Assembly: GCA_015060705.1 (NCBI GenBank) | Contig: SUXY01000002.1 | Span: 1-64,000, forward strand | DNA length: 64,000 nucleotides | From: Bacteroides sp. | GTDB taxonomy: Bacteria; Bacteroidota; Bacteroidia; Bacteroidales; Bacteroidaceae | Reading direction: 5' to 3' | Shown here: piece by piece, positions 2,974 through 53,275 of the stretch | Numbering within the stretch: position 1 is the first letter of the stretch | Layout: each line of letters begins with the position of its first letter | Notes under the pieces: model-generated | Seen by the model: the letters and a program-made list of their open reading frames with translations, nothing else | The model's database searches: none | What the model was told of the DNA's origin: nothing | Translations under genes and position numbers: made by a program

Positions 2974-2995
2974 AGTATATTCAGAAAAAAGAAAA

Positions 2996-3080
2996 TGTCA
3001 TTCAGATGACCGAAGGGAGGAAGAATCTCGATAACACAAAGTGAATGCAACCGAGATTCTTCGCTTCGCTCTGAATGACA
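2996..3080. repeat. Dispersed palindromic intergenic repeat, copy 2
   Basis: tgtcattcagatgaccgaagggaggaagaatctcg...cgagattcttcgcttcgctctgaatgaca. Confidence 0.9.
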
Positions 3081-3110
3081 TCTAGGGATTGATATAATCG
3101 CCTATTCTAA

Positions 3111-5743: not shown

Positions 5744-5828
5744 TGTCATCCAGAGCGTAGCGAAGGATCTCGAACACACATGATGAATTCGAGATTCTTC
5801 GCTACACTTTGTTTCGCTCTGAATGGCA
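5744..5828. repeat. Dispersed palindromic intergenic repeat, copy 3
   Basis: tgtcatccagagcgtagcgaaggatctcg...cgagattcttcgct...cgctctgaatggca. Confidence 0.85.
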
Positions 5829-5888
5829 AATACATGTGACATCCTACAAAATAATCACATAATATTCTTTTTTTCTATCTTTTTATTA

Positions 5889-8189: not shown

Positions 8190-8274
8190 TGTCATCCAGA
8201 GCGAAGCGAAGGATCTCGGTAACATCCACGTTGATGTACACGAGATTTTTCGCTTCGCTTTGTTACGCTATGAC
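8190..8274. repeat. Dispersed palindromic intergenic repeat, copy 4 (degenerate right end)
   Basis: tgtcatccagagcgaagcgaaggatctcgg...cgagatttttcgcttcgctttgttacgctatgac. Confidence 0.8.
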
Positions 8275-8320
8275 TCTTCACTCACATTAGCATTACCATC
8301 TCAGAAGTGTTTTTCTACCT

Positions 8321-8866
8321 ACATCCCTACATTGCCTACATCAACATTGATAATCAGCGGTTTACCCATGTAGGTAACATGTAGAGAGCATGTAGGGAAC
8401 CCGTTTTTGCCTACATTTTGCCCTATTATTAACAAATCTTTGCAATAAAAGAGACCGATTTTGCCTCTTTTTGCCTAGATTCTGCCCATTTTTGATGGTT
8501 TCTTGACCATATATATCCGTATTCCAGCTATTGTGAGTGTGTGTCATAATGTATGAAAACACCTTTTATCTACATGAAAAAGCATTTTACCTACATTTTC
8601 AAGCCTTTCACTTCCGTCTGTATCTTATATTCACAATGCTTCGTCTATATATTCAAAGCATTGCGTCTATATAGACAAAGCATTACGTCTATATATTCAA
8701 AGCGCTTTGAATATAAAATAGATACTGATTATCAGTGATATACGCATATTCATATCCGATTATTCCGATATGAGTTTATATCCATGTAGGCAAAAATTTG
8801 CCTACATATTACCTACATTGGGTAACTCACTGATTATCAAAGCAGATGTAGGCATGTAGGCAAAAT
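8321..8866. repeat. Structured noncoding locus A: inverted-repeat arms of CCTACAT/ATGTAGG motifs enclosing a 3x22 bp tandem array
   Basis: Left arm 8321-8416 and right arm 8784-8866 are imperfect inverted complements (e.g. tttttgcctacat 8404-8416 vs atgtaggcaaaaa 8784-8796; ttgataatcagcggtttaccc 8347-8367 vs gggtaactcactgattatcaa 8820-8840). Confidence 0.8.
8639..8704. repeat. Three tandem 22-bp units inside locus A
   Basis: cttcgtctatatattcaaagca / ttgcgtctatatagacaaagca / ttacgtctatatattcaaagcg. Confidence 0.85.
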
Positions 8867-8972
8867 GATGAAAATAAATAAATGTTTGATATATTTAATA
8901 GATAGCTATTTGGATAATACATGTATTTGAGATGTGAGAAAATCTTTCATTTTTGGATAGGGACATCAGATG

Positions 8973-37817: not shown

Positions 37818-39056
37818 TTATTCTTTTTTAAATGTACACAGAACAATTACATCATTACTGTCTTCGTGCAGCGAATTCTTTAGGTGAGTAATTCGTTCAC
37901 GGACAGAATTGTCCATTGACGTATTTTTATTTAGGACTTCTTCCAATTGTTCTTTTAACTTCAAGGCATCATTGAATCGGAAGAATACATAATTGTCCTT
38001 CATCGAATAACGAAAGTTGACACCACTTACTTCAAGGCCACCTAAATAATCATTGATCAAACGAATATATCGAGCCTTCCCCGTTTTCTTCTCTACCTGT
38101 ACCAATCGGTTCGTTTCCATGTTCTGCGGAGCAATGAGTTTTCCTTCCTTATATCTTTGGTAAGTTGTGTAATAATGCAATGGTGACTCCGTAGAGAATA
38201 CCAAATTACACTCATCGTGAGGAAAATTTGTGGTATAAGCCGGATAAAAATGGTTCGTAGCCTTATTGTAATGGTATAAGGTGTCCTTTATGTAAACTTT
38301 GGCCTGCTTGATACAAAAAGTGTAAATGGGAGAGTCTTTTGTGACATGCGATACATAGATTCTATTATGCGCATTAATTTCATTTGGCATCACGAGATGG
38401 CCGGGGGAAATGCCTTTTGAAACATTCCCTTTCAAATCTTGTTGCCAACAAAGATATGGATCAGCTTCAGTTTCTATGCTATTTCTAAATCGTGGTAAAA
38501 CCCCGTTACTTTTGGGTGACACAAATACCAAAGCACTGTCTTTATTTTCACTCAAATAGACTTCTTTCCATGAAGGTATCATCGGTAATTGGATAGCTTC
38601 ATCGGGTAAATGCTTTCCGTTCCAATCGTAAGCAACAATATGGTCTAATACCATATCCGAGAGATAGACTCTTTTGTTCTGTTCGTCTATGATTCCTCCA
38701 TCTACAATGAAATACTCACCCGGTCCTTGACCGCGGTTCCCGATATTACTAATGAATTTACCATCCGAACGCCGGAATAGCTTGGCGTGTTTACCATTGG
38801 TTATCAACAAATAATTATCACTGACCATTAATTGGTGAATGGCCATGTATGCTTCGCTAGCTGTATCCAGTTGAATGATTTCTACCGATTCCATCAAGTC
38901 TGAAAAATAGACGGTATGTATTTCGTCATCCAAAGTAGTGATATCAAGAGAAAACAATTCTCTTTCTTTCACGCCAACCGAATGGTTGTCCGATTGGCTA
39001 GTGCAAGCCGATAGTGCTAGCATCAAGCATAAGAATAAAATGTTGTTCTTCATCAT
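37818..39056 (-). CDS. 6-bladed beta-propeller lipoprotein
   Basis: Lipobox LALSACTSQ; VEIIQLDTASEAYMAIHQLMVSDNYLLITNGKHAKLFRRSDGKFISNIGNRGQGPGEY. Confidence 0.85.
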   Translation of the reverse strand: MMKNNILFLCLMLALSACTSQSDNHSVGVKERELFSLDITTLDDEIHTVYFSDLMESVEIIQLDTASEAYMAIHQLMVSDNYLLITNGKHAKLFRRSDGKFISNIGNRGQGPGEYFIVDGGIIDEQNKRVYLSDMVLDHIVAYDWNGKHLPDEAIQLPMIPSWKEVYLSENKDSALVFVSPKSNGVLPRFRNSIETEADPYLCWQQDLKGNVSKGISPGHLVMPNEINAHNRIYVSHVTKDSPIYTFCIKQAKVYIKDTLYHYNKATNHFYPAYTTNFPHDECNLVFSTESPLHYYTTYQRYKEGKLIAPQNMETNRLVQVEKKTGKARYIRLINDYLGGLEVSGVNFRYSMKDNYVFFRFNDALKLKEQLEEVLNKNTSMDNSVRERITHLKNSLHEDSNDVIVLCTFKKE

Positions 39057-39301
39057 AGTATGTTTATTGTTCTGTTTATCTCAGACAAAGTTAGAGATAA
39101 AAAGTGATAAAACAAAAAAACGGGTGCGGACAAATGAAAACTTTGTTTTCTGTTGATAATCAAATGAATAAGTTGTTCTATAGCCTCATTTTTGAGGTGT
39201 CATGCGGACAACCGAGGCTTCGGAAAAGTCGTTTGTCCATGTTTTGATAAGCCATGGGGCGAATTCAATTTGCAAAAGGATTGGAAAGGGGAGAAAAACA
39301 T

Positions 39302-39361: not shown

Positions 39362-40162
39362 TTATTTCAATAATTTCCGCTGCTCGTCATTTCCGAGAAC
39401 ACTCATCTGATGAATGGCGATTTGATTTAACTTAATCAGTCGTTCGGATTGTGGAATGCCTTGGTCTATGAAAACGGCATTCAAGTTTTCCATATTCGAA
39501 AGACAAATCAACTCGTTGATACTTGCATAATCACGGATATTTCCTTTCAAATCAGGATTCTCATCACGCCATTGTTTGGCTGTTTTACCGAACATGGCCA
39601 CATTAAGCACATCCGCTTCTTCAGCATAGATTATGCTTGCCTGTTGTGAAGTTACCTCTTCAGGTATAAGATGCTGCTTAATGGCATCGGTATGAATACG
39701 ATAATTGATTTTGGATAGTTCACGTTTGGCAGACCAACCTAATTGTTTCTGTTCTTCGGATTTCAGGCGTTGGAATTCTCGTATCAAATATACTTTAAAT
39801 TCGGGACTAATCCACATGGCAAATTCAAAAGCGATATCTTTATGTGCATATGTACCACCATAACGGCCTGCTTTAGATATTATTCCGATAGCTTTTGTCT
39901 TTTCCATCCATTCCTTGACGCTTAGTCGATAGCTGTTCAGTCCTGCTTGACTTTTAATTATGTCGAATTCGACACAATTAAACTTGGGGTTATTCAATTG
40001 TTCCCAAATGCCAAGAAATTCTACCGTATTTCGATTTCGCAACCAATTAGAAAAAAAGAATTCTCCATCTTTTGCTTTAAGCATATCGGTTAAACTGATG
40101 TAATCTTGCTCGTCAACTTTCACTATAGATACTTCAGTGTCTTTCACTATAATCTTTACCAT
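39362..40162 (-). CDS. KilA-N domain-containing protein
   Basis: YISLTDMLKAKDGEFFFSNWLRNRNTVEFLGIWEQLNNPKFNCVEFDIIKSQAGLNSYRLSVKEWMEKTKAIGIISKAGRYGGTYAHKDIAFEFAMWISPEFKVYLIREFQRLK. Confidence 0.9.
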   Translation of the reverse strand: MVKIIVKDTEVSIVKVDEQDYISLTDMLKAKDGEFFFSNWLRNRNTVEFLGIWEQLNNPKFNCVEFDIIKSQAGLNSYRLSVKEWMEKTKAIGIISKAGRYGGTYAHKDIAFEFAMWISPEFKVYLIREFQRLKSEEQKQLGWSAKRELSKINYRIHTDAIKQHLIPEEVTSQQASIIYAEEADVLNVAMFGKTAKQWRDENPDLKGNIRDYASINELICLSNMENLNAVFIDQGIPQSERLIKLNQIAIHQMSVLGNDEQRKLLK

Positions 40163-40411: not shown

Positions 40412-40554
40412 AAGAATTCAATATTCTATATTATTACTGACGCGTTTATTTTTTAAACAAACTTCGTTCTTTGGCAAACGATATAAAGTCTCAAAAACAA
40501 CGTATGCTTTATCCTCTAAAAAAGTCCTTTCCTACACAAAATTTCAATCATCTG

Positions 40555-40919
40555 CTTACACTCCTGTCACCGGGACTTAACTGGTTGTAATTCATCGTGA
40601 AAGGGGTGGCAGGAGGGTACAACCATCGTGCCACTCCTGTCACCTACGAACGTTCGCTGAAAGATGATACATCTTACCTCGACAAGATGTATCATCTTAC
40701 TGCGATAAGATGCTACATCTTCCAGCGGAAGCCCGTATACGTTGTCTTTTCCTGATCAGTTAGACAGTTTTCTATTTCATTAACTATATTAATAGACACT
40801 TCTTCTTGAAGCCAACTGAAAATCTTGTCAATGCACGGGTGGCACGACGGTTGCACGACTCGTGCCACCGTATTTTCCCTGAGAGACAAGCATTTACATC
40901 CCATTGACAGGAGTGTAAG
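40555..40919. repeat. Structured noncoding locus B: inverted-repeat arms enclosing a 3x ~23 bp tandem array
   Basis: cttacactcctgtca (40555-40569) is the exact reverse complement of tgacaggagtgtaag (40905-40919); arms continue imperfectly (ggtggcaggagg...caaccatcgtgccac vs gtggcacgacggttgcacgactcgtgccacc). Confidence 0.8.
40659..40726. repeat. Three tandem ~22-23 bp imperfectly palindromic units inside locus B
   Basis: tgaaagatgatacatcttacct / cgacaagatgtatcatcttactg / cgataagatgctacatcttccag. Confidence 0.85.
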
Positions 40920-40962
40920 GAGATTCCCTGAATTTCTTGGGAAAGAGGAAGATTTCCTGCTT

Positions 40963-43900
40963 CTATCCTTCCAAACTCACAATTTCTTGCAGAATACTTA
41001 CCGCTGTCTCCACATTTTCCACATTCTTCACCACCATGCTGCGCTTGCCGTTCTGCTCACGAAGATTACAGAAACGAGGGTTGCGGCCCATGTATCCGAT
41101 AACCTTTCCAAAAGCGGCACTCTGATAGTACGGACTATCGGGATTGCTCACAAAGAACAAAGTCATTCTTCCAGCTTTCAGGAAAATCTTTTCGGCTCCC
41201 AAACGCTTGGCTAGACGACGGAGCGGCACAATGCGGAGCAATTCCTGAGCTTCGGGTGGAACCTTACCGAAACGGTCTTCCAAGCGAGACTTGAAATCGA
41301 GGACATCCTTGTCCAATTCCAATCCGTCGAGTTCCCGATAGAGCAACATACGCTCGCTACTGCTCGGAATGTATTCGTTCGGGAAGAGCAATTCGAGGTC
41401 GCTTTCCACCTGACACTCACTCACGAAATCTTCGCCACTGATTTTCTCTTCTCCGGCAGCTTGAAGTTCCTCGGCATAGAGTTCGCTGAACTCGTCTTCC
41501 TTCAGTTCCTTCACGGCTTCTGCCAAAATCTTCTGATAGGTTTCATACCCTAAATCGGCGATGAATCCACTCTGTTCAGCACCCAACATATTTCCTGCTC
41601 CACGGATATCCAAGTCCTGCATGGCGATGTGGATACCGCTACCCAAATCGCTGAAGTTCTCGATGGCCTGCAAACGGCGCTTGGCTTCGGGAGTCAACGA
41701 GCTGAGTGGTGGAGCCAACAAATAACAGAAGGCTTTCCGATTGCTTCGACCCACTCGCCCACGCATCTGATGCAAATCACTCAAGCCGAAGTTCTGAGCG
41801 GCATTGATGATGATGGTATTGGCATTCGGAATATCGATACCACTCTCGATGATGGTCGTAGCCAAAAGCACATCGTAATCGTAATTGACGAAATCGTAGA
41901 TAATCTTTTCCAACTCTTCGGGCTTCATCTGACCATGACCGATGCATACACGGCAATCCGGAATATGACGCAAGATAAGTGCCTTCAACTCCTGCAGATT
42001 CTGAATGCGGTTGTTCACGAAGAACACCTGACCATTGCGGCTCATCTCGAAATTGATGGCCTCGGTAATGATTTCCTCGTTGAACGTGTGCACCTCTGTC
42101 TGAATGGGATAACGATTGGGTGGAGGTGTCTGGATGACGGACAAGTCACGGGCTCCCATGAGCGAGAACTGCAAGGTACGCGGAATCGGGGTAGCGGTCA
42201 TGGTGAGGGTATCGACATTCACCTTCAGCTGGCGAAGCTTTTCCTTTACACTCACTCCAAACTTCTGTTCCTCGTCGATAATCAGCAATCCCAAATCCTT
42301 GAACTTCACACTCTTTCCAATCAGTTTGTGTGTACCGATCAAGACATTGATCTCGCCATTCGCCAGTTCCTTCAAGATGCGGGAAGTGTCCTTAGCGGAA
42401 CGGGCACGGCTCAGGTATTCCACCTTACAAGGGAATTCCTTCAACCGCTCACTGAATGTCTGATAATGCTGGTACGCCAACACGGTGGTAGGTACAAGTA
42501 CCGCTACTTGTTTGTTGTCCGTAGCTGCCTTGAATGCCGCACGAACCGCCACTTCGGTCTTGCCAAAGCCCACATCACCACATACCAAGCGGTCCATCGG
42601 ACGGTTGCTTTCCATATCGGCCTTCACATCGTTGGTGGCTTTCAATTGGTCGGGCGTATCTTCGTAGAGGAAGCTCGCCTCCAATTCATGTTGCAAGAAA
42701 CTATCGGGCGTATAAGCAAAGCCCTGTTCCTGCTTACGTTGGGAATACAGCTTGATCAGGTCGCGGGCGATGTCCTTGATTTTGGTCTTCGTACGCTCCT
42801 TGATTTTCTCCCAAGCGCCCGTACCGAGCTTGTTGATACGGGGAGGTTCACCCTCCTTGCCCTTGTATTTCGATATCTTGTGCAACGAGTGGATGGATAC
42901 AAACACCACATCGTCGTTCTGATAAATCAACTTGATGACTTCTTGTGTAGAATCGCCGTTCGGCAGACGCACCAATCCAGCAAACTTTCCGATGCCATGG
43001 TCGATATGTACCACATAGTCACCCGGCTCGAATTGGCTGAGTTCTTTCAGGGTTAATGCTACCTTACCGTTTCTAGCTCGGTCGCTTCGCAGATTGTATT
43101 TATGGAATCGGTCGAATATCTGATGGTCGGTAAAGAAACAGCTCTTCAGCACATGGTCTGTAAAACCTTCGTGTAAGGTTTTGTTCACATACGTAAAACT
43201 AATGTTGTCACCTCTTTCCTCGAAGATGTCCTTCAATCGTTTGGCTTGCTTTTCGCTATCCGTACAGATATAAAGAGTATATCCCTTTTCCAGGAACTCC
43301 TTGAAACAAGTACTTACCAACTCGAAGTTCTTGTGAAATATCGGTTGGGCTTGTGTATCGAACTTCAACGTTGCCTGCGGAGTGCCCGTAGGCTTGTTTC
43401 CGAATTCTATCCGACGGAAATTCAAGGCATGAAGCATGAAGGTACCTCCATCAATCAGGTGCTTGCTGATGTTCAGAAGTTCATTCTTATGCTCCTCATC
43501 GGCTGCCAATGCCAATGGTGAAACGGCCTCCTCGTAAATCGTATCAATGCGTTCTCTCACCCAGAAGAAATCCTTCATCGCCAAGATACTATCCTTCGGA
43601 ATGAAATCGAAGAAGGAAACAAATTCGCCGCTTCCTGCTACACTCAACTCCGGCACAATCGCAATGGACTCTTTCTTCTCTCTAGACAACTGAGTATCGA
43701 CTTCGAACGTACGGATACTATCAATCTCATCGCCAAAGAAGTCCACACGGAAAGGATATTCCGACGCATAGGAAAACACATCGACAATGCTACCACGAAG
43801 CGCATATTGTCCCGGCTCGTATACATAGTCCACCCGCTCGAAACCGAACCCCGCCAAGGTATCCATGATGTGATCCACTTCCACCTGCTGACCGACATCC

Positions 43901-44334
43901 AATTTCAAGGTTCTACTGGAAAGTTCCCGGCTCGACACCACCTTCTCCGCCACCGCTTCCGGACAAGTTACAATGCATACCACATCGCCCTTCTGCAATC
44001 GGCTAAGCACTTCGGTACGAAGAATCTCATTCCCGGCATCCTTCTGTCCATACTTGATGGCCCGACGGTACGATGACGGGAAAAATAAGACATTCTCCTC
44101 CCCGTTAATCTGAGTAAGGTCATGATAGAAATAGCCCGCTTCTTCCACATCGCCTAGAATAAAGACGGTCGTTTGCTTGGCATTTTTCAGATAGGATGAA
44201 AAGAAGAGTGGAGAAGCAGAGGCATGCAATCCCCCCAGAAAAAACGTCTTGACGGACGAATCCTCCAATTGTTTGGCCAATCCCTTGGTATTGGGATGAG
44301 CAGCATAGATATGTTGTAATTCTGTTATGTCCAT
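40963..44334 (-). CDS. mfd: Transcription-repair coupling factor
   Basis: RLVCGDVGFGKTEVAVRAAFKA, DEEQKFGV, TMTATPIPRTLQFSLMGARDLSVIQTPPPNRYPIQT, MRGRVGRSNRKAFCYLL. Met at 44334 (MDITELQHIYAAHP). Confidence 0.96.
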   Translation of the reverse strand: MDITELQHIYAAHPNTKGLAKQLEDSSVKTFFLGGLHASASPLFFSSYLKNAKQTTVFILGDVEEAGYFYHDLTQINGEENVLFFPSSYRRAIKYGQKDAGNEILRTEVLSRLQKGDVVCIVTCPEAVAEKVVSSRELSSRTLKLDVGQQVEVDHIMDTLAGFGFERVDYVYEPGQYALRGSIVDVFSYASEYPFRVDFFGDEIDSIRTFEVDTQLSREKKESIAIVPELSVAGSGEFVSFFDFIPKDSILAMKDFFWVRERIDTIYEEAVSPLALAADEEHKNELLNISKHLIDGGTFMLHALNFRRIEFGNKPTGTPQATLKFDTQAQPIFHKNFELVSTCFKEFLEKGYTLYICTDSEKQAKRLKDIFEERGDNISFTYVNKTLHEGFTDHVLKSCFFTDHQIFDRFHKYNLRSDRARNGKVALTLKELSQFEPGDYVVHIDHGIGKFAGLVRLPNGDSTQEVIKLIYQNDDVVFVSIHSLHKISKYKGKEGEPPRINKLGTGAWEKIKERTKTKIKDIARDLIKLYSQRKQEQGFAYTPDSFLQHELEASFLYEDTPDQLKATNDVKADMESNRPMDRLVCGDVGFGKTEVAVRAAFKAATDNKQVAVLVPTTVLAYQHYQTFSERLKEFPCKVEYLSRARSAKDTSRILKELANGEINVLIGTHKLIGKSVKFKDLGLLIIDEEQKFGVSVKEKLRQLKVNVDTLTMTATPIPRTLQFSLMGARDLSVIQTPPPNRYPIQTEVHTFNEEIITEAINFEMSRNGQVFFVNNRIQNLQELKALILRHIPDCRVCIGHGQMKPEELEKIIYDFVNYDYDVLLATTIIESGIDIPNANTIIINAAQNFGLSDLHQMRGRVGRSNRKAFCYLLAPPLSSLTPEAKRRLQAIENFSDLGSGIHIAMQDLDIRGAGNMLGAEQSGFIADLGYETYQKILAEAVKELKEDEFSELYAEELQAAGEEKISGEDFVSECQVESDLELLFPNEYIPSSSERMLLYRELDGLELDKDVLDFKSRLEDRFGKVPPEAQELLRIVPLRRLAKRLGAEKIFLKAGRMTLFFVSNPDSPYYQSAAFGKVIGYMGRNPRFCNLREQNGKRSMVVKNVENVETAVSILQEIVSLEG

Positions 44335-44415
44335 AAATTTGTTAAGTCGAACGGCAAAATTAAAAAAATATCCGATTAGTTGGAACGATTTCAAGGAAGT
44401 ATTTCGGAAAATCGT

Positions 44416-44423
44416 TACATTTG
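44416..44423 (+). promoter_or_regulatory. Bacteroides-type -7 box (TACATTTG)
   Basis: 24 nt upstream of ATG at 44447. Confidence 0.6.
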
Positions 44424-44446
44424 CAATTCGTAAAAACAGAAAACTC

Positions 44447-46642
44447 ATGTACGAAGGAATCGAAGATATTTTCCGGCTACTCGATGCCGGCCGTTTAAAG
44501 GAAGCATTGACGCAACTTCAAGGCATCAGCATGCAAACCAACCGCTGGGAGCTACGCAACCGAATCGAAAGCACCCTCACGGCGTATGGCTATATGTTGC
44601 AATATGCCCAACAAGGCATGGAAGACCCGAACCGCAAAAGCTTCTACCAACAAACCTTCCGTACGGCTTACGAACTCACGGATGCTGTAAACATCGCCCT
44701 GCATTCGCAAAAGACCAGTGGCATGTATTATGACCGTATCCGTACCTTCGGTCTGCAACCAGCGAAGGCTTATGCCGAACTTCAGCTTCAATTGGAAACC
44801 TTTACCGAAGATGCATCGACGGCCCCTTTGCTCTATCACGATGACAAGCGCCTGCAAACCGAAATGGGAAAAATTCACCAATCGCACGAATCGGCCCTCA
44901 CGGAACTTTTCGACAAGACTTGGGCAACTCCTTTCTGGAGTGATAACGAAGCACGGGAAGCAACGCTTCTTCTGCAATCGGTATTGGTGGCTCCCAACGA
45001 CTTGGCCGTCATGGTGAGTGCTGCCACCTTGAGTTTGATTCGCGTATTTGATGCCCACAAATTGGGTTTTCTATTGGAAGCCTATCGCCACGAACACTTG
45101 CAAGTGAACCAACGGGCTTTGGTAGGGATACTCATCACCATTGCTAAACATGAGAAACGGATTGCCTTGTATCCCGAACTCCTCTCCCGCTTCTCCCTCC
45201 TGAGCGAAGACGAAGGTTTCCGGAAGAACCTGTATACCATTCAGATGCAGTTACTCATCACCCGTGAAACCACCAAGATAGACAAGAAAATGCGCGAAGA
45301 AATCATCCCCGAGATGATGAAGAACGCCAAACAACTGAACGACCCGAAATTCCGTTTCGACGAATCGGAAGAATCCGAAGACCGCAATCCGGAATGGGAA
45401 GAATGGATGGACAAGAGCGGCATGACGGACAAGATCAAGGAAATGGGCGAATGGCAAATGGCAGGTGCCGATGTGTACATGAGTTCGTTTGCCCAACTCA
45501 AGCATTATCCGTTCTTTCATCAGGTTTCGCATTGGTTCTACCCGTTCGACTTGAGTCTTCCGATGCTGGCACCTCTTAAAAAAGAGTTCGACAGCTCGGC
45601 TTTTTCACCGTTGAAGCTCATCGCTCATTCGGATTTCTTCTGTAATTCGGACAAATTCTCGTTCAGCTTGGCCATTCTGAGCATGCCTCAAAACATGCGC
45701 GAAATGTCCATGCAACAAATGGAAGAACAAGCACGCATGAACGAAGAACAACGCGACAAGTTGGAAGCCTTGATGCAACAAAAAAGAGAAGCCAAGGGCA
45801 TCAGTCGTCAGTACATTCAGGACTTGTATCGCTTCTTCAAGCTATGGCAACGCCATCAGGAAGAAGAAGACATCTTCCGTTGGAAGTTCAACTTATGGGA
45901 AAACTCGTTGTTGGGCGATGCCTTGCAACAACCGGAGATTACCAAGGAATTGGCGGATTATCTCCTGCAAAAAGAATACTTGGAAGAAGCTTATTCGCTC
46001 TATCAGAAATTGATGAATGAACACAGCACCCTAGCGGAAGTTTATCAGAAAGCCGGTTATATCCAACAAAAGCAGAAGCACTATACCGAAGCGATCCGAC
46101 ATTATGAACATGCCGATATCCTGATGCCCGACAATGTTTGGACCAACAAGCATCTGGCTCAATGCTACAAGTTGAGCGGCAACATGAATTCGGCTTTGGA
46201 ATACTACCGGAAAGTGGAGGCTGTCCAGCCCGACAATTTGAGCATCGCTTTACAAATCGGTCAGTGCCTGGCTCGAAAAGAAGCCTACACCGAAGCATTG
46301 TCTTATTTCTACAAAGTGGAATATTTGGAAAAGAATCCGGACAATGCCCGACGAGCCATCGCCTGGTGTTCTTTCGTTAGCGGTAAGAACGAAGAAGCCT
46401 TAAAATATTATCAGCTATTGCTCCAACAACCGGCACCCAAGTCGCACGACTGGATGAATGCAGGTCATGTGTATTTGGTCAAGCATCAGATACAAGAAGC
46501 CCTCGTTCATTATCAGAAGGCTCATGCCATGGAAAGCAATCATACAGCCTTCATCGATAAATTCAATAAGGACAAGGCAACATTGTTGAGTTTGGGATTA
46601 AATAAGGAAGATATTCAGATAATACTTGATTTATTACTATGA
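44447..46642 (+). CDS. Tetratricopeptide repeat protein
   Basis: TPR-type repeats in C-term: LAEVYQKAGYIQQKQKHYTEAIRHYEHADILMPDNVWTNKHLAQCYKLSGNMNSALEYYRKVEAVQPDNLSIALQIGQCLARKEAYTEALSYF. Confidence 0.88.
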   Translation: MYEGIEDIFRLLDAGRLKEALTQLQGISMQTNRWELRNRIESTLTAYGYMLQYAQQGMEDPNRKSFYQQTFRTAYELTDAVNIALHSQKTSGMYYDRIRTFGLQPAKAYAELQLQLETFTEDASTAPLLYHDDKRLQTEMGKIHQSHESALTELFDKTWATPFWSDNEAREATLLLQSVLVAPNDLAVMVSAATLSLIRVFDAHKLGFLLEAYRHEHLQVNQRALVGILITIAKHEKRIALYPELLSRFSLLSEDEGFRKNLYTIQMQLLITRETTKIDKKMREEIIPEMMKNAKQLNDPKFRFDESEESEDRNPEWEEWMDKSGMTDKIKEMGEWQMAGADVYMSSFAQLKHYPFFHQVSHWFYPFDLSLPMLAPLKKEFDSSAFSPLKLIAHSDFFCNSDKFSFSLAILSMPQNMREMSMQQMEEQARMNEEQRDKLEALMQQKREAKGISRQYIQDLYRFFKLWQRHQEEEDIFRWKFNLWENSLLGDALQQPEITKELADYLLQKEYLEEAYSLYQKLMNEHSTLAEVYQKAGYIQQKQKHYTEAIRHYEHADILMPDNVWTNKHLAQCYKLSGNMNSALEYYRKVEAVQPDNLSIALQIGQCLARKEAYTEALSYFYKVEYLEKNPDNARRAIAWCSFVSGKNEEALKYYQLLLQQPAPKSHDWMNAGHVYLVKHQIQEALVHYQKAHAMESNHTAFIDKFNKDKATLLSLGLNKEDIQIILDLLL

Positions 46643-46645
46643 AAT

Positions 46646-46735
46646 TGTCATTCAGAACGGAACGAAGTGGAGTGAAGAATCTCGAAAACACCAATGTGGA
46701 TGTACTCGAGATTCTTCGCTTCGCTCTGAATGACA
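46646..46735. repeat. Dispersed palindromic intergenic repeat, copy 5
   Basis: tgtcattcagaacggaacgaagtggagtgaagaatctcg...ctcgagattcttcgcttcgctctgaatgaca. Confidence 0.9.
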
Positions 46736-46779
46736 TTAAAAAACAATAAAAAAAATAGGAGTTTTTCTCTTAAATTCCC

Positions 46780-53161: not shown

Positions 53162-53197
53162 ACATCTATAAACGAAGGTATTTCACAATATAAATTA

Positions 53198-53275
53198 GGC
53201 ACGGATTACACGAATTCACGGATGAGAAAGTGTTTTACACACTTAAAGACCATGTTAATTCGTGTAATCCGTGCC
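53198..53275. repeat. 19-bp perfect inverted repeat between convergent genes
   Basis: ggcacggattacacgaatt (53198-53216) / aattcgtgtaatccgtgcc (53257-53275). Confidence 0.85.

Follow-up and report, generated by a model that had tools for sequence, protein, structure and literature searches.

The 365-bp element that lies between mfd and a KilA-N gene in the 64,000-nucleotide stretch of Bacteroides DNA analysed here (the window) probably belongs, in a judgement that we hold with moderate confidence, to a dispersed repeat that is modular, MITE-like and non-coding, and of which it would be one copy. We refer to it as locus B. The repeat is built from interchangeable inverted arms (C-arms), a 97-bp array core (P) and a short module (S); its copies would spread by mobilisation and be reshuffled by recombination between arms, and its palindromes would act at the level of DNA.

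Modules of the element beside mfd

Locus B sits past the 3' end of mfd. Direct reading of its 15-bp ends, cttacactcctgtca (40555-40569) and tgacaggagtgtaag (40905-40919), shows that they are exact reverse complements, and the arms continue to pair imperfectly over 66 nt (73%; 40550-40615/40859-40924). A second, inner inverted pair spans 23 nt (83%; 40617-40639/40834-40856). The interior holds three 15-bp palindromes with a 23-bp period (40661-40675, 40684-40698 and 40707-40721), and TRF extends this period over 40655-40727. The exact terminal repeats, imperfect longer arms and three tandem palindromes that the first-pass annotation described are thus confirmed. Folded as DNA, the whole element reached -85.2 kcal/mol, compared with -39.7 +/- 4.0 for shuffled sequences (z -11.5; 0/100), which means that the fold is not due to chance. 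The features of the region are as follows, with ORFs called by a simple longest-ORF method and the S module recognised by eye, in copies L010, L011, L013, L017 and L018 as well as in the window.

39362..40162, minus strand: KilA-N domain protein, the other neighbour (PF04383, E 4.9e-27; PHROG transcriptional regulator, E 4.8e-62)
40537..40554, plus strand: outer left arm of CAAAATTTCAATCATCTG type, less conserved; outward sequence common to arm copies, with conservation fading by about -35
40555..40644, plus strand: left C-arm, with TIR CTTACACTCCTGTCACC and inner hairpin GGTGGCAGGAG...CACTCCTGTCACC; 92% to the arm consensus at 40549-40644
40645..40741, plus strand: array core P, 97 bp, with outer inverted repeat TACGRGCRTTCGCTGAAAGATG / CATCTTCCGGCGGAAGCYCGTA around the three palindromes; from an alignment of 20 copies
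40661..40675, no strand: palindrome unit 1, AAGATGATACATCTT; TRF period 23, 102 units tabulated
40684..40698, no strand: palindrome unit 2, AAGATGTATCATCTT; direct reading, TRF and unit table
40707..40721, no strand: palindrome unit 3, AAGATGCTACATCTT; direct reading, TRF and unit table
40757..40799, minus strand: S module, a pair of GTCTA(CTTT)-type motifs spaced by about 33 bp; recurs beside P cores
40833..40924, minus strand: right C-arm, inverted; 77% to the arm consensus, exact TIR at 40905-40919
40963..44448, minus strand: mfd, flanking gene (Pfam UvrB_inter, CarD_TRCF_RID, DEAD and TRCF)

Two further kinds of repeat were seen in the window. A different dispersed inverted repeat of about 92 bp, GTCATTCAGAACGGAACGAAG...CTTCGCTTCGCTCTGAATGAC, occurs at 46643-46736, 128-219, 2991-3081, 5744-5835 and about 8192-8272; it is found at about 40 places in the same genome and also in several relatives. 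The intergenic gap at 53196-53275 contains the inverted repeat GGCACGGATTACACGAATTC...TTAATTCGTGTAATCCGTGCC, and a similar sequence is present on a contig of the related genome G010.

Dispersed copies in the same genome

The genome to which the window belongs is a Bacteroides-like MAG, a draft of 118 contigs that is 88% complete. Searched against it, the whole element gave 71 matching pieces; the P core was found at no fewer than 22 distinct sites (E<=0.001), and the C-arm consensus had at least 15 matches. In the copies that we read, P and C modules were joined, separate and in varying order. The order C-P-S-C is shared by the window, L009, L015 and L024, and the other combinations were P-S-C, C-P, solo P and solo C. 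All 28 examined copies were intergenic or touched an ORF edge at most, in 16 tandem, 6 convergent and 3 divergent contexts, with 3 at contig ends left unassigned.

This dispersion bears on a proposal of the first-pass annotation, namely co-evolution of locus B with a binding protein, here the adjacent KilA-N protein, in the manner of an iteron-type origin or a recombination site. The 22-23-bp period is indeed iteron-like and the KilA-N gene adjoins the element, but the 22 or more copies flank unrelated genes rather than forming a dedicated site, mfd occupies the other flank, no initiator gene was present among the neighbours examined and the arrays do not occur as one per replicon. The dispersion largely refutes this reading, which we regard as highly improbable. 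A REPIN moved by a RAYT (Y1) transposase is equally improbable. REPINs are likewise dispersed extragenic palindromes with inverted ends, but the units of locus B carry no GTAG/GGAG foot by eye, and Y1_Tnp (PF01797) was absent from this genome and nine relatives, most of them incomplete, while the controls were positive. As Y1 is absent from these ten genomes, mobilisation by a RAYT is unlikely, and the REPIN reading has very little probability. The search for a transposase sharing the TIR covered the Y1 family, and none was found there. Tn7/Mu-type transposon ends, in which multiple transposase sites of about 22 bp form arrays at the ends of a transposase-carrying element, were considered and rejected: the array of locus B lies within the arms, and at 365 bp the element is too small to hold a transposase gene.

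The orientation of the copies relative to genes is balanced, with 7 sense and 9 antisense among the 16 tandem contexts. This is relevant to a structured RNA or a terminator element in 3' UTRs, the former of which had also been suggested for locus B. Such a role would agree with the hairpins predicted on the two strands, which are strong (z -6.4 and -7.2), and with the many copies that sit after gene 3' ends, but several copies come after a separate apparent terminator: P begins right after apparent intrinsic terminators in L011, L014, L016, L017 and L018. The 102 tabulated units contain one strongly variable stem pair, which changes from T-A to C-G (67 and 17 units) with the intermediates CA (12) and TG (6), and stem mismatches show no G-U bias (GT 10 versus AC 17). 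The structure of the P core pairs far better than slid versions of it. Covariation on 20 P cores was not above the control, with 5 double-change pairs versus 4.3 in shuffles, and an Rfam scan of the window gave no match. The stem-pair data, the covariation result and the balanced orientation together favour a DNA-level feature, and the RNA suggestion is not supported and is quite improbable. On our preferred reading of a mobile repeat, the palindromes would act on DNA as dyad sites, spaced by roughly two helical turns, to which a dimeric protein or one that recognises cruciforms would bind; alternatively, cruciform or hairpin DNA, not RNA, might take part in the mobile step.

Some arm copies have distinctive junctions. 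In L018 (right end) and L032 (left end), the C-arm is joined to GAAGTGAACCCAAAAAGTTGGAC... near a contig end, which looks like the end of an inserted IS. The outer edge of the C-arm in L068 (1606) and L080 (1492) is spanned by a perfect Bacteroides-type promoter, TTTG-N21-TATATTTG, so that the -33 box comes from the arm; both promoters point outward.

Arms and arrays in related genomes

Within the genus, P was present in 8 of 60 sampled genomes and the C-arm in 6 of 61, the carriers of the latter being mostly incomplete MAGs with several copies at contig ends. None of 40 other genomes of the phylum contained P at high similarity. The exact P and arm patterns were both absent from viral contigs, and neither the locus B element against phages nor the arm consensus against plasmids gave a match. 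The only plasmids matched by the element were Parabacteroides distasonis records, and the match ran through the array; searched alone with blastn, the array was found in three records, at six places, from one strain of this species. These arrays have the unit and spacer style of P (e.g., AAGATAATACATCTTACAACGATAAGATGATACACCTT), and P-like arrays are also present in G041, a complete genome of the window's genus (L215 and L218). This means that the unit is more widely distributed than the arms. The P-type units and similar spacer in Parabacteroides could reflect a conserved functional site instead of a selfish element.

The first-pass annotation had set two checks for its reading. The first is passed, as other genomes do have arms around triple-unit arrays; the second, on compensatory changes, was applied to the array core and was not borne out there. 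The arrays that the arms enclose are not the same: the C-arms hold AGTACTCTCATC-type and CACATACGTATG-type arrays in G010, CGCCTTCGCGA-type and AAGCTT-type (AAGCTTNNGCGG) arrays in G031 and a AAACGCYTAGGCGTTT array in G057. Nearly all of these have a 21-22-bp period, and their sequences are unrelated. In the pairs L009/L080, L014/L074 and L036/L082, the aligned flanks are orthologous and remain so across the arm; homology is lost at, or a few bases from, the inner end of the arm. In L025/L054 and L030/L075, orthologous genes are followed by different arrays. As the far flanks of the compared sites are not syntenic, rearrangement by recombination at dispersed arms fits these data as well as exchange of the interior. 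Locus B itself sits at a synteny break, since synteny on the mfd side is kept over many kilobases in several relatives and the sequence past the 3' end of mfd differs among the relatives read. At the orthologous sites that we compared, neither a clean empty site nor a target-site duplication was obtained; for L011 and locus B, the intergenic flanks could not be aligned and the orthologous regions were too diverged or rearranged.

The dispersion, intergenic placement and mosaic structure of the copies, the unrelated 22-bp arrays within the same arms and the sharp ends of homology are observations. From them, we infer transposition, with an enzyme and a binding protein of the repeat: copies would spread by trans-mobilisation, and recombination between dispersed arms may reshuffle them and leave rearrangement breakpoints.

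Two stretches are unusually similar between genomes. L040 946-2518 and L091 3093-1521 (G000 versus G010) share 95.4% identity over 1.57 kb, ending inside a C-arm, whereas other orthologous flanks are at about 77%; a recent transfer is likely. Window positions 38863-39248, upstream of a propeller gene, match one locus of G031 at 96.6% identity and one of G010 at 92%, compared with about 77-85% for most orthologues, which suggests recent spread.

The first-pass annotation compared locus B with another element of the window, locus A, in which inverted arms (8326-8384/8802-8860, 85%) enclose a 22-bp array (8626-8703). Its observation that the two have a like plan with unlike sequence holds: we saw no primary sequence similarity between them. 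Locus B belongs to a many-copy repeat family and locus A is single-copy in the genome. A 22-bp array related to that of locus A (window 8290-8900) is found in G009 (L196 15791-15867), and the two lie in intergenic gaps of nearly equal length (1303 and 1306 bp).

The likeness in plan recurs across many array families of the genus. In an unbiased sample of 262 kb of the window's genome, intergenic DNA showed a sharp 22-bp lag peak that reached 40, with a 44-bp harmonic; shuffled sequences gave 3.3 and coding DNA 1.4. The peak was also found in G009, G057, G031 and G041 and was weak in G011; other periods dominated G010. A scan for arrays with periods of 14-33 in six genomes of the genus, G010 being left out, found 20 arrays, 18 of which had a period of 21-23 (binomial 2e-13 versus equal periods). 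Outside the genus, 100 kb of each of four genomes was scanned; three contained no arrays and one had mostly other periods. Units were dyad-symmetric (p<0.05) in 14 of 17 arrays tested although their sequences are unrelated; the 17 are not a random sample, since some were chosen for their position in C elements. Most arrays have about 2.3-5 units. One family of G041, TATCACTNNAGTGATGAA, follows the plan of P, with four 22-bp units and ATCGTTTCACT/AGTGAAACGAT ends at 8 dispersed sites. The absence of these 8 sites between 1.19 and 3.87 Mb, a possible bias to half of the chromosome, was too weak to claim.

As the arrays of the genus nearly all combine a period of 21-23 bp and dyad units with unrelated sequences, the rule of same architecture and different sequence seen in loci A and B holds more widely. 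We tentatively propose, as a possibility well short of an even chance, that Bacteroidales contain a general class of intergenic arrays of about 60-100 bp, with 3-4 dyad units, a fixed 21-23-bp period and free sequence, that are moved and swapped as cassettes within conserved inverted arms. If so, behind them would lie either a mobilising enzyme that is yet to be described or binding proteins of one family, spaced by two turns and with changing specificity, and the search for either would become concrete. Fixed spacing with free sequence throughout Bacteroidales would give one design for a large share of gut-bacterial intergenic repeats, would account for the rearrangement points and assembly breaks that recur at these repeats and would link BrickBuilt of Porphyromonas to a wider class.

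The fixed period and the dyad units in unrelated families are also what would be expected if P and the other 22-bp arrays were operator-like or nucleoid-organising sites, each family with its own dimeric protein on one face of the DNA and with dispersion reflecting a regulon or chromosome organisation. The lack of strand bias and the return of the P-type unit and spacer in Parabacteroides distasonis and G041 fit this too, and there is a precedent in P. gingivalis, where the HU protein PG0121 binds both structured DNA and an inverted repeat of 77 bp (PMC3969353). However, copy number and array type turn over fast among related species, the arrays follow unrelated genes, often right after a terminator, and the binding protein is putative, with no candidate singled out. 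We consider this explanation possible, though clearly less probable than a mobile repeat. Doubtful, and weaker again, is a passive minisatellite, in which slippage would grow the arrays and template-switch correction would perfect the palindromes, giving period and symmetry without function. BrickBuilt 23-mers do grow and shrink between strains (PMC4596501) and covariation within P does not exceed shuffles, but slippage sets no common 21-23-bp period over unrelated sequences (18/20), and the copy numbers of the arrays are narrow. Our preferred reading remains the modular mobile repeat, and the interpretation of the first-pass annotation as a whole is partly supported.

Comparison with known repeat systems

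BOX elements of pneumococcus are modular composite intergenic repeats, like the locus B family, with different sequences. We know of no report of fixed two-turn palindrome arrays with exchangeable families among them. BOX elements are named in PMC10969869. REPINs, BIMEs and GTAG/CGTC REPs share with the family dispersed extragenic palindromes, inverted pairs and turnover among related genomes (PMC3733652, PMC3116915), whereas no GTAG/CGTC tag was noted and no RAYT found for the locus B copies, which do have long arms and a fixed 22-23-bp tandem spacing. The repeat of the gingivalis capsule operon, bound by HU PG0121, is, like locus B, a large intergenic inverted repeat of Bacteroidales with cruciform potential; in the available part of its source, it is described as a single locus, and a tandem 22-23-bp array is not described (PMC3969353).

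A search of the open-licence literature, both for 22-bp palindrome arrays between Bacteroides genes and for the sequences of the unit and the arm themselves, found nothing closer than BrickBuilt, a MITE of Porphyromonas gingivalis in which tandem 23-nt repeats lie in flanking segments with inverted-repeat ends (PMC4596501). It has about 19 copies, which are strictly intergenic and modular, some without one or both flanks; its terminal repeats resemble those of other P. gingivalis MITEs whose interiors differ, and BLASTn reported it from P. gingivalis alone (PMC4596501). As such an element of another Bacteroidales was already described, the claim that locus B is the best candidate for an undescribed system was too strong. 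The locus B family likewise has 23-bp direct repeats and segments with inverted ends (40549-40644 and 40833-40924), and is intergenic and multicopy, with 22 sites or more versus about 19; both belong to the order Bacteroidales. It differs in its ends, which by eye read CTTACACTCCTGTCA against the published 12-bp IS5-like consensus GAGACCTTTGCA, and in its unit number, mostly 3-4 versus 1-23. Palindromic units are not described for BrickBuilt, and neither is the swapping of unrelated arrays inside a single arm family (PMC4596501). As the architecture of BrickBuilt is found in locus B and its terminal sequence and reported host restriction are not, locus B is of the BrickBuilt kind and is not BrickBuilt itself. 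On the best-supported reading, the locus B family is a non-autonomous modular repeat with arms as recombination zones, functionally comparable with BrickBuilt, its closest known system.
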